The position numbers and the translations under genes are program-made. A stretch of DNA of 64,000 nt from Lactococcus sp. S-13 (GTDB taxonomy: Bacteria > Bacillota > Bacilli > Lactobacillales > Streptococcaceae). The notes below the pieces were generated by a model that was not told where the DNA came from, made no database searches, and was given only the letters and a program-made list of their open reading frames with translations. The stretch covers positions 1,488,001 to 1,552,000 of the forward strand of contig NZ_SDAK01000001.1 of assembly GCF_004210295.1 (NCBI RefSeq). Reading direction: 5' to 3'. This document shows, one piece after another, positions 1-62,442 of the stretch (the first letter of the stretch is position 1; each line of letters opens with the position of its first letter).

Positions 1-2748
<2,748 letters not shown>

Positions 2749-17546: not shown

Positions 17547-17573
17547 CCCTAAGCGCAAAAGCTAGGGTTTTTT
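17545..17573 (+). terminator. Terminator of the HAD/LacI operon
   Basis: AACCCTAAGC pairs with GCTAGGGTT with one mismatch, followed by Ts. It faces the rRNA operon terminator 10 bp away. The same CCCTA/TAGGG type of hairpin follows recX at the second rRNA operon. Confidence 0.85.
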
Positions 17574-17581
17574 GAAACAAC

Positions 17582-17605
17582 AAAAAAAGAAGCCTTAGCT
17601 TCTTC
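17582..17605 (-). terminator. rRNA operon 1 terminator
   Basis: GAAGAAGCTAAGGCTTCTT followed by seven Ts on the minus strand, just past the 5S gene. Confidence 0.85.
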
Positions 17606-17611
17606 ACTCAA

Positions 17612-17725
17612 CTTGGCCACGAGCCTATCTCCCAGGGGGCAACCCCCAAGTACTTCCGCCGTAGATGGACTTAACTGCTGTGTTCGACATGGGAACAGGT
17701 GTATCTCCATCACTATGATGACCAA
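17612..17725 (-). rRNA. rrf: 5S ribosomal RNA, operon 1
   Basis: The minus strand reads GGTCATCATAGTGATGGAGA and ends near GAGATAGGCTCGTGGCCAA, with the loop around CCCATGTCGAACACAGCAG. These are standard Gram-positive 5S features. The ends are estimated to within a few bases. Confidence 0.93.
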
Positions 17726-17811
17726 ATCTTTAAATGTTACTTTGAACATTCAAAACTAAATAACACTTCTTCTAACGCTTAACCTTAAGCTTTTTATATT
17801 TGACTCTTTTG

Positions 17812-20706
<2,895 letters not shown>

Positions 20707-20844
20707 ATGATGAATTTAATCATCTTTTTTCAAGTATAAGTTTGTAAATTCTTTAAAATTCACAGCTTTTGGTTTATTTTATCGTTATTAGATATTGTTA
20801 TTTAGTTTTCAATGTTCAAGTGATTTTAACGTCTTGTCTGACAA

Positions 20845-20917
20845 TGGAGCCTAGCGGGATCGAACCGCTGACCTCCTGCGTGCAAAGCAGGCGCTCTCCC
20901 AGCTGAGCTAAGGCCCC
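20845..20917 (-). tRNA. tRNA-Ala (anticodon TGC), operon 1
   Basis: 73-nt cloverleaf beginning GGGGCCTTAGCTCAGCTGGG. The anticodon stem-loop is CCTGC-TTTGCAC-GCAGG and the T arm GGTTCGATCCC. The 3' CCA is not encoded. It sits in the 16S-23S spacer. Confidence 0.98.
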
Positions 20918-21004
20918 ACAATCAAGAAATTGATTCTTGTATAGGTTTTCTACTAAACCCCTCAAAACTGAATAAAGTTGAATGCTCACGTCTTTGTATA
21001 TATT

Positions 21005-22557
<1,553 letters not shown>

Positions 22558-22711
22558 AGTATTTAAGTCACACTAATGTGACTGGCTTGTCTTTCATTAT
22601 TGATTGACAGATTTTTTGATGTCTTTCGACATCACATGAGTCATTCTTCTTTATTCAGTTTTCAATGGTCTAGCTCGCTTCAAGACCCTCGTCTCTTGCG
22701 ACAACTATTAT

Positions 22712-46234: not shown

Positions 46235-46906
46235 TTATTTTTCTTTAATGATTTCCAAAAATTTATCGAGCCCTTGTGCGGACTGAACCTGCTGATTGCA
46301 AAGGTCTGAGTCTAAGCAAATATAGGTGCCGTTCTTTGTATAAGTGCCGTCTGCGCCTGTCTTAGTCGTTGCTAAAAATTGAGTCACGACGCTTGTTTTT
46401 TGACAAATGGCACAAATATTTTTTATGTTTCCAGAAATTGTCCCGTAAAATCCTCGACCGTCGGCGGTCAAAATGTATTTTCGGTTGCTAGAAACTTCGT
46501 TCCAAGCCAAATAAGTGACCTCACGTAAGTCCCATTGGCTCAGTGCTGGCAGTTTCAATTTTTTCACTTTTTTGAAGGCTTTTTTCATCTGCGCTTCGGT
46601 GGGCAAATGGAAGGGTTCGACCCAATTTTTTAATTCCATCAGCATTTTCTCTGCTTGCTCTCTGGAAAAACTTGGATTTTCTAGTGCTTTCAAATAGTTT
46701 TCAAGTGCCGATTTTACTGACGAATTGTCTGGCAGCTGATTTACTGACGAAAAATTTCCGTCAGCATTTTCTCCAAGCTGTAAAATTTCGCTGGCGACTT
46801 GGGCGTAAACCGCATTAACTGTGGATTTATCATTGACAGAATGATAAACATTCACCAAGTCAAAAGTGAGGTATTTGATGCGATTGTATTCGTGTGGTTT
46901 TAACAT
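46235..46906 (-). CDS. FusB/FusC-like EF-G-binding protein
   Basis: 223 residues aligning by eye with FusB: YNRIKYLTFDLVNVYHSVND at the start, VEPFHLPTEAQMKKAFKKVK, LAWNEVSSNRKYI in the middle, then a four-cysteine zinc finger (CAICQ and CLDSDLC). FusB-type proteins bind EF-G and free it from fusidic-acid-stalled ribosomes. Relative to FusB there is extra sequence at residues about 45-65 (GENADGNFSSVNQLPDNSSV), encoded around a 16-bp element at 46759; a degenerate element at 46636 encodes EKMLMELKN. Whether this chromosomal version gives resistance is unknown. Confidence 0.85.
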   Translation of the reverse strand: MLKPHEYNRIKYLTFDLVNVYHSVNDKSTVNAVYAQVASEILQLGENADGNFSSVNQLPDNSSVKSALENYLKALENPSFSREQAEKMLMELKNWVEPFHLPTEAQMKKAFKKVKKLKLPALSQWDLREVTYLAWNEVSSNRKYILTADGRGFYGTISGNIKNICAICQKTSVVTQFLATTKTGADGTYTKNGTYICLDSDLCNQQVQSAQGLDKFLEIIKEK

Positions 46907-49045: not shown

Positions 49046-49087
49046 TTTTTGTCTCCTAAAAAGGGTTTAAAAATTTACTGACAAATC

Positions 49088-49165
49088 CGTCAGTAAATTC
49101 TCTCCTTCAAATCAATTCCGTCAGTAAATTCTCTCCTTCAAATCAATTCCGTCAGCATTTTCTCT
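49088..49165. repeat. Tandem of three 16-bp elements with a 31-bp period
   Basis: Copies at 49088, 49119 and 49150, each starting exactly 31 bp after the last. The 15-bp spacers are identical (CTTCAAATCAATTC core). A partial inverted partner, AATTCACTGACGGAATTC, follows at 49170-49188. Confidence 0.95.
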
Positions 49166-49194
49166 CAGAAAATTCACTGACGGAATTCAAATTT

Positions 49195-51677: not shown

Positions 51678-51696
51678 CCCTCTGCTAGGGTTTTTT
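51671..51696 (+). terminator. Terminator of recX
   Basis: ACCCTAGC and GCTAGGGT with a short loop, then Ts. It overlaps the recX stop codon. Confidence 0.9.
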
Positions 51697-51705
51697 GAAG
51701 GCAAT

Positions 51706-51729
51706 AAAAAAAGAAGCCTTAGCTTCTTC
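51706..51729 (-). terminator. rRNA operon 2 terminator
   Basis: Identical hairpin to that of operon 1, followed by seven Ts on the minus strand. Confidence 0.85.
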
Positions 51730-51735
51730 ACTTAA

Positions 51736-51849
51736 CTTGGCCACGAGCCTATCTCCCAGGGGGCAACCCCCAAGTACTTCCGCCGTAGATGGACTTAACT
51801 GCTGTGTTCGACATGGGAACAGGTGTATCTCCATCACTATGATGACCAA
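51736..51849 (-). rRNA. rrf: 5S ribosomal RNA, operon 2
   Basis: Identical to operon 1 over the mature region. Ends are estimated. Confidence 0.93.
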
Positions 51850-51935
51850 ATCTTTAAATGTTACTTTGAACATTCAAAACTAAATAACACTTCTTCTAAC
51901 GCTTAACCTTAAGCTTTTTATATTTGACTCTTTTG

Positions 51936-54831
<2,896 letters not shown>

Positions 54832-54969
54832 ATGATGAATTTAATCATCTTTTTTCAAGTATAAGTTTGTAAATTCTTTAAAATTCACAGCTTTTGGTTT
54901 ATTTTATCGTTATTAGATATTGTTATTTAGTTTTCAATGTTCAAGTGATTTTAACGTCTTGTCTGACAA

Positions 54970-55042
54970 TGGAGCCTAGCGGGATCGAACCGCTGACCTC
55001 CTGCGTGCAAAGCAGGCGCTCTCCCAGCTGAGCTAAGGCCCC
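54970..55042 (-). tRNA. tRNA-Ala (anticodon TGC), operon 2
   Basis: Identical to the operon 1 copy, 73 nt, without an encoded CCA. Confidence 0.98.
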
Positions 55043-55129
55043 ACAATCAAGAAATTGATTCTTGTATAGGTTTTCTACTAAACCCCTCAAAACTGAATAA
55101 AGTTGAATGCTCACGTCTTTGTATATATT

Positions 55130-56681
<1,552 letters not shown>

Positions 56682-56835
56682 AGTATTTAAGTCACACTAA
56701 TGTGACTGGCTTGTCTTTCATTATTGATTGACAGATTTTTTGATGTCTTTCGACATCACATGAGTCATTCTTCTTTATTCAGTTTTCAATGGTCTAGCTC
56801 GCTTCAAGACCCTCGTCTCTTGCGACAACTATTAT

Positions 56836-60056: not shown

Positions 60057-60983
60057 CTATTTGTGTTCTATTTCGTGTCCACCAAAGCCATTGCGCAGAG
60101 CTGCGACCACTTTACCTGTCATCGTGTCGTCTTGCAAAGAGCGATTGCGCATCATGAGTGAGAGCGCAATGATAGGGGCAGGGACATTTAAGTCCAAACT
60201 TTCTTCAACCGTCCACTTTCCTTCGCCTGAAGCTTGGACGCGTCCTAAAATTTGCTCTAGTTTTGGATCTTTGGCGAATTGTGCTTCAGCGAGTTCCATG
60301 AGCCAACTGCGAATGACGGAGCCATGATTCCAGAGTTTTGCGACGGCTTCATAGTCATAGTCAAAAGGGGAGTGTTCCAAAATTTCAAATCCTTCTGCGA
60401 TGGCCTGCATCATGCCGTACTCAATGCCGTTATGAATCATTTTCAAGTAATGACCACTTCCGAGTCGCCCTGTGTAGAGGTAACCATTTTCTTGAGAAAT
60501 GGCTTGAAATAGAGGTTCGATAAGTTGCCATGCTGGCTCATCGTCACCACCAATCATGAAATTTCCGCCTTGGCGAGCGCCTGATGTGCCGCCCGATGTG
60601 CCTGCATCAAAGAATTTGATGCCTTTGGCTTTTAATATCTCATTTTGTTTGAGGTTGTCTTTGTAATTGGAATTGCCTCCGTCAATCAAAATGTCTCCTG
60701 CTGACATTTTTTCACTGAGTGTTTCAATGATTGAATTTGTTGGCTCACCCGCTGGCACCATGACCCAGATTATTCTCGATTGGCCGAGAGAATTTGCTGA
60801 CGGATTTAATTCCGTCAGTAATTTCTCTAGATTATCTACTGCTGTAATCTTCTCGGAATAATTTTTGACGCGAGCTAAGGCCGTTTGATCGACATCGTAG
60901 GCAACGACTTCGATATCATGGTCGACAGCGTTTTTTACGAGATTCATGCCCATTTTTCCTAGGCCAATCATTCCAAATTTCAT
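60057..60983 (-). CDS. gnd: 6-phosphogluconate dehydrogenase, short GntZ/YqeC type
   Basis: Oxidatively decarboxylates 6-phosphogluconate to ribulose-5-phosphate. The 308 residues are of the compact type (about 300, versus 470 in the classical enzyme). Rossmann motif MKFGMIGLGKMGMNLVKNAV, the SGGTSGARQGGNFMIGG loop and the catalytic region GSGHYLKMIHNGIEYGMMQA are present. Residues about 51-66 (LEKLLTELNPSANSLGQS) come from an inverted pair of the 16-bp element (60787-60828) that lengthens a surface loop before the conserved RIIWVMVPAGEPT strand. Confidence 0.94.
   Translation of the reverse strand: MKFGMIGLGKMGMNLVKNAVDHDIEVVAYDVDQTALARVKNYSEKITAVDNLEKLLTELNPSANSLGQSRIIWVMVPAGEPTNSIIETLSEKMSAGDILIDGGNSNYKDNLKQNEILKAKGIKFFDAGTSGGTSGARQGGNFMIGGDDEPAWQLIEPLFQAISQENGYLYTGRLGSGHYLKMIHNGIEYGMMQAIAEGFEILEHSPFDYDYEAVAKLWNHGSVIRSWLMELAEAQFAKDPKLEQILGRVQASGEGKWTVEESLDLNVPAPIIALSLMMRNRSLQDDTMTGKVVAALRNGFGGHEIEHK
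60787..60828. repeat. Inverted pair of the 16-bp element within gnd
   Basis: AGAGAATTTGCTGACG at 60787-60802 and CGTCAGTAATTTCTCT at 60813-60828. With the flanking GGA/TCC the arms form a near-perfect hairpin in the coding region without breaking the frame. Confidence 0.95.
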
Positions 60984-62355: not shown

Positions 62356-62363
62356 TTTTTGCC

Positions 62364-62398
62364 AGAGAAAATGCTGACGTAAATTTTCGTCAGTAAAA
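62364..62398 (+). terminator. Element pair as terminator after the DUF960-like gene
   Basis: AGAGAAAATGCTGACG at 62364-62379 faces CGTCAGTA at 62389; Ts are poor but an A-run follows. The stem is TGCTGACG/CGTCAGTA. Confidence 0.65.
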
Positions 62399-62405
62399 AA
62401 GTCAA

Positions 62406-62442
62406 TAAAAAAAGTCCGTCAGTAATTTTGACGGACTTTTTT
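62406..62442. terminator. Bidirectional terminator
   Basis: AAAAAAGTCCGTCA and TGACGGACTTTTTT around a short loop, at the stop of the phosphoesterase gene. Confidence 0.9.

Follow-up and report, generated by a model that had tools for sequence, protein, structure and literature searches.

The REP/BIME repeats of enterobacteria are numerous short sequences that lie in gaps between genes, form alternating pairs and are found on the chromosome only, and the motif described here is placed likewise; a single REP already forms a hairpin by itself, and genes almost never contain one. In the Rickettsia palindromic elements (RPEs) a complete element, about 100 bp in length or longer, has been inserted, and essential genes tolerate it as a loop. 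In the uptake signal sequences (USS) of the Pasteurellaceae a short GC-containing core lies beside an A/T tract, which is also the layout of the present motif. The USS show an in-gene orientation bias (PMC2346458), and the DNA-uptake sequences (DUS) of the Neisseriaceae form dialects, reach about 1900 copies per 2.2 Mb and occur as inverted pairs at terminators (PMC3630211).

Here we analyse a window of 64 kb, the whole stretch of DNA under study, in which a palindrome inside the gnd gene led to a 21-bp motif whose closest analogue appears to be the DNA-uptake sequence of the Neisseriaceae and Pasteurellaceae. Like the DUS (PMC3630211), the motif has on the order of at least 1000 copies per ~2.2 Mb, dialects built on a common core and copies inside genes; its inverted pairs lie mostly between genes, those of the DUS at terminators. 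The DUS is, in contrast to the 21-bp unit found here, a 10-12 bp unit of Gram-negative bacteria with a known receptor, ComP. Like the USS (PMC2346458, PMC7811141), the motif has hundreds to thousands of copies and an orientation bias in reading frames. The USS sequence differs, and its bias towards gene ends has no significant counterpart in the positions of the in-gene units here (KS p 0.17); moreover, uptake specificity has been demonstrated for the USS, whereas for the present motif it would be a prediction. With the RPEs it shares palindromic DNA placed in frame in essential genes, but the unit is only 21 bp long, one of the two arms in gnd is native and half of the pair was gained.

The gnd palindrome is an inverted pair of a chromosome-wide 21-bp motif

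The gnd gene, which encodes a short-type 6-phosphogluconate dehydrogenase (Table 1), is the first in a gnd-gntK-gntP run, and the structure model of its product has a fold that matches the short 6PGDHs 10gw, 8ihe and 6vpb. The original prediction placed a palindromic pair inside this gene, and both arms are indeed present within 60787-60828, at 60787-60804 (+) and 60811-60828 (-), in frame in the 308-aa reading frame, where they encode LEKLLTELNPSANSLGQS. The view of the element as a palindrome did not hold up. The motif to which a position weight matrix converged, yAGARAAWWTRCTGACGnAWnT, is an asymmetric and sharply bounded unit of 21 bp whose flanks carry zero information, and units are mostly single or in direct, helically phased arrays. 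By this matrix a single unit is neither a palindrome nor a hairpin, unlike the REP unit. We conclude that the gnd palindrome consists of two units of a 21-bp DNA motif in inverted orientation, and that this motif is species-specific and spread over the whole chromosome.

Depending on the threshold, ~300-376 units were found in 464 kb of sampled chromosome, against 1-8 in a Markov control. The unit statistics rest on these sampled stretches, which amount to about a fifth of the chromosome and extrapolate to ~1,500 units in the genome. Within the window CTGACGGA occurs 25 times where 1.1 are expected, and unit 2 of gnd has a 91% match with another copy there. Genome-wide, the 16-mer AGARAAWWTRCTGACR is found 599 times and its reversed control 0 times; in 18 congeners the same 16-mer has 0-9 occurrences. 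Against an expectation of about 68 units, the 106.6 kb of plasmid-like contigs contain 2. Viral contigs gave only single motif matches per stretch, which by our estimate is close to what chance would yield for a 15-16-mer in so large a collection. The unit thus shares with uptake sequences both over-representation as a short chromosomal motif and scarcity in plasmids and phages. Literature searches found no described repeat of comparable kind in Lactococcus, and an Rfam scan of the window returned rRNA and tRNA only. The window also contains two near-identical rRNA operons (17565-22711 and 51689-56835), 34 kb apart.

Table 1. Coordinates of gnd, its motif units and other features. Positions refer to the window unless another stretch (L) is named; a point marks features given without strand.
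Feature	Position	Strand	Basis or remark
gnd, short-type 6-phosphogluconate dehydrogenase, 308 aa	60057..60983	-	ORF list, relatives, fold
Motif unit 1, coding strand CTAGAGAAATTACTGACGGAATT, encodes LEKLLTEL	60808..60830	-	motif score 31.3
Motif unit 2, inverted, GAGAGAATTTGCTGACGGATTT	60786..60807	+	motif score 29.0
21-bp in-frame extension, AAT CCG TCA GCA AAT TCT CTC, residues N60-L66	60786..60806	-	alignments; absent from Gnd outside the genus; model loop
Phased array between two genes, three direct units 31 bp apart and one inverted	49084..49188	.	window
rseP-like gene, two units 31 bp apart in different reading frames	2428..2476	-	window
Units in a gap between convergent genes	62361..62434	.	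similar hairpin at 62422 in G001, G005 and G017, in own dialect
coaE with in-frame units	L123:3792-4517		linker grown strongly relative to sisters
dnaG with in-frame unit	L124:16116-18065		essential gene

Native codons and in-frame growth in gnd and other genes

In coding sense the gnd site reads CTA GAG AAA TTA CTG ACG GAA TTA, AAT CCG TCA GCA AAT TCT CTC, GGC. Its first part matches codon by codon CTT GAA AAT TTA CTG ACA GAA TTG (LENLLTEL) of the sister species G001, and unit 1 aligns without gaps with CTTGAAAATTTACTGACAGAATT of the same genome. Unit 1 consists of native codons (LLTEL) that were turned into motif by substitutions, and unit 2 came with an in-frame extension of 7 residues (21 bp) in the loop that joins helix 52-58 to strand 71-74. 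Several positions differ between the two arms and each difference is permitted by the motif, from which we infer that the second arm is no recent copy of the first. A loop insertion tolerated by Gnd had been proposed; the in-frame extension agrees with this, but insertion of the entire 42-bp pair does not, as one arm is native and gap-free relative to the sisters.

The expectation that Gnd proteins elsewhere have a shorter loop was borne out by a multiple alignment of ~105 relatives, in which only the source species and three species of the same genus have extra residues at this place, with no such extension outside the genus (Weissella, Leuconostoc, bacilli and others); an identical loop in Gnd of genera lacking the element was looked for and not found. 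The three, counted among 15 other genomes of the genus with full-length Gnd, have 7 (G009), 22 (G017) and 23 (G005) extra residues. The extension of G009 carries CTACTGACAGAGCTGTCAGTA and that of G017 TTACTGACAAAATTGTCAGTG, at the same place and each in its own spelling, and all three sister extensions are spelled in the dialect of their species. Trees for the gain and loss of the extension do not settle the order of events, with support of 63-78 at the key PolI nodes and 18-58 in the Gnd tree. In the structure model, residues 61-70 have a mean pLDDT of 65, whereas the remainder of the Rossmann domain is above 90. Such low confidence is what a flexible surface loop would be expected to show.

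It could be argued that an enzyme of the transposase type inserted a mobile palindrome of the REP or RPE kind into gnd. Such an origin would account for the clean 21-bp in-frame extension that holds the second arm and for the growth of an array in coaE, and it has a precedent in the RPEs, which are in-frame gene inserts. Insertion of the whole palindrome into gnd is nevertheless ruled out by the LEKLLTEL arm, whose native codons align without gaps, and gnd does not show the whole element inserted relative to orthologues that characterises the RPEs. Furthermore, units have neither conserved flanks nor a fixed pair geometry, the gene copies at 46642, 62947 and 60818 are pure substitutions without indel relative to the sisters, and the sisters spell the same place in their own way. 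We consider this the least likely of the rival explanations and very improbable.

Related events are seen in other genes. The linker of coaE has few residues in G003, G005, G010 and G017 and is longer in G001, G009 and G016; it is longest in the source genome (G000), where it holds several units and grew by in-frame extension. In dnaG a conserved RRENM stretch became a unit and gained one residue. One pattern thus recurs in gnd, coaE and dnaG, in which a unit is seeded in native sequence and then grows in frame.

Placement, orientation and helical phasing of the units

ORFs of 90 aa or more, which served as gene proxies, cover 81% of the sequence and leave 19% as gaps; these gaps hold 200 of the 295 units. 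About a third of the units lie within ORFs, in which the motif differs from REP/BIME. At equal length, 59 units fall between convergent genes and 8 between divergent ones. Units in codirectional gaps follow the direction of transcription (78:24); in genes most units stand alone and in sense orientation, with a ratio of 67:11 outside hairpins. Orientation along transcription, even between genes, would also suit a transcription-linked role. A replication-oriented signal resembling KOPS or Chi is unlikely, since orientation tracks the gene on both strands.

Most neighbouring units form direct rather than inverted pairs. There are 40 inverted (+-) pairs within 55 bp, of which 30 lie between genes, 7 in ORFs and 3 are mixed, and gnd is therefore not alone in carrying one. 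Such pairs, when 18-19 or 29 bp apart, form hairpins of an A-tract, a stem and a T-tract, which raises the possibility that units are parts of intrinsic terminators or of 3'-end RNA hairpins, with single units half-built or decaying. The location of 30 of the 40 pairs wholly between genes and the enrichment between convergent genes would fit, as would the gnd pair, which on the antisense strand scores as a terminator, if a weak one.

At gnd itself the predicted mRNA hairpin is confirmed in that the 45-nt coding strand has a folding energy of -19.5 kcal/mol (a z of -8.7 relative to dinucleotide shuffles of the same stretch), but it is not exceptional gene-wide: an equally stable 45-nt window arises in 16 of 200 synonymous gnd shuffles, so stability alone is no argument. 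The arrangement typical of an intrinsic terminator, a GC stem and then a T-run on the transcribed strand, is absent from gnd, where the sense strand has no T-run and the weak match on the antisense strand is the only one, which rules out a sense terminator. As the unit is asymmetric and occurs mostly singly or in direct phased arrays, the gnd mRNA hairpin is probably a by-product. Across the chromosome, too, direct neighbour pairs outnumber inverted ones, the in-gene units are mostly single and in sense, and helical phasing would be meaningless for RNA hairpins. A terminator role for the units is consequently improbable.

Direct neighbour units are spaced 21, 30-32, 41-42 or 51 bp apart; convergent pairs are 18-19 and 29 bp apart and divergent pairs 22 bp. 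After pairs with similar spacers had been collapsed, the 52 direct pairs with unrelated spacers gave a 10.5-bp period with R=0.76; the p value of about 1e-13 is approximate, because a range of periods was scanned and the distances cluster at 30-31 and 41. The units thus recur on the same side of the helix, and the persistence of this period with unrelated spacers points to a protein that sits on that face of the DNA at the units. In the rseP-like gene (Table 1) the spacing is not set by codons, because 31 bp is no multiple of three. In most arrays the spacers are unrelated, which rules out that their spacing arose by tandem duplication. Some longer arrays with a 41-bp period and related spacers (L115:6929-8511, L121:6975-7103 and L124:1409-1573) are apparently tandem-amplified, and they were among those collapsed ahead of the period analysis.

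Phasing of direct pairs despite arbitrary spacers, together with matching offsets of the convergent and divergent pairs, is what a chromosome-organising or global DNA-binding protein would produce if it bound the motif cooperatively on one face. Filaments or loops would then start from arrays, with the pair in gnd as one weak node. The contrast in unit density between chromosome and plasmids and the preference for gaps over genes are in line with such a protein. Odd for an organiser, however, are the scarcity of units between divergent genes and their orientation with transcription, and sister dialects of different geometry would mean that the protein had co-evolved again and again with over 1000 sites. 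We therefore regard an organising protein as rather unlikely.

Dialects in sister species and a putative uptake code

The window is syntenic with G001, G005 and G017. The motif takes the form A.TTACTGACAGA in G001 and G016, TTCTGTCAGTACTGACAGAA in G005 and G017, and TTACTGACAGagCTGTCAGTaa in G009; G010 has GTACTGACAGAA, similar to that of G005, and weaker variants are found in G014 (CTGACAGAGC) and G011 (TCTGTCAAAA). No such motif was found in the sampled stretches of G002, G003, G008 and G013. The motif core is present at the orthologous place in sisters in 69 of 169 cases, compared with 53 of 887 control positions, although comparisons with related sisters are not independent. These data indicate that the motif network has dialects in the sister species, as uptake sequences have among related species, and keeps its orthologous places. 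In two congeners without the CTGAC motif, G003 (L149-L151) and G015 (L221-L222), another word, AGCACAGC, is over-represented (35 in 60 kb, 1 expected); it may stem from a repeat protein or belong to a different network.

We tentatively favour the explanation that units accumulate through preferential uptake of self-DNA in natural transformation, and that the gnd pair is an uptake tag. This is suggested by the likeness to the DUS and USS in density, dialects, inverted pairs and in-gene orientation bias. A sequence-specific protein would read the unit as double-stranded DNA, unit-rich DNA would more often be taken up and recombined, and the resulting bias at the population level would let copies accumulate. 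Units would arise by mutation and then expand into arrays in permissive gaps and loops, units and receptor would drift together into a dialect, and the gnd pair would be a tag in a tolerant loop without a role in the enzyme. Reading frames for comEC and comEA are present in the source genome but do not discriminate, as both are also found in congeners without the motif. Uptake sequences are not known to form arrays or to be strongly phased on the helix, and helical phasing of direct arrays is not known from the DUS; this counts against uptake as the cause, as does the orientation of units along transcription. Uptake outside Neisseria and Haemophilus has also been described as sequence-independent (PMC12040237), which again stands against it.

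It is conceivable, if doubtful, that a Gram-positive clade, probably Lactococcus to judge from plasmid matches and gene content, evolved an uptake code of its own, with phased arrays for multiple receptors and with loops of Gnd and CoaE rewritten in the process. Uptake codes are well established in two Gram-negative groups only, and with a dialect-forming Gram-positive motif of similar density the origin of such codes becomes testable in bacteria that are harmless; the helical phasing of the units suggests multivalent protein binding. If the motif is no uptake code, it would mark a new chromosome-wide DNA-binding system. Either way, essential enzymes can have new peptide loops imposed on them by a signal at the level of DNA.
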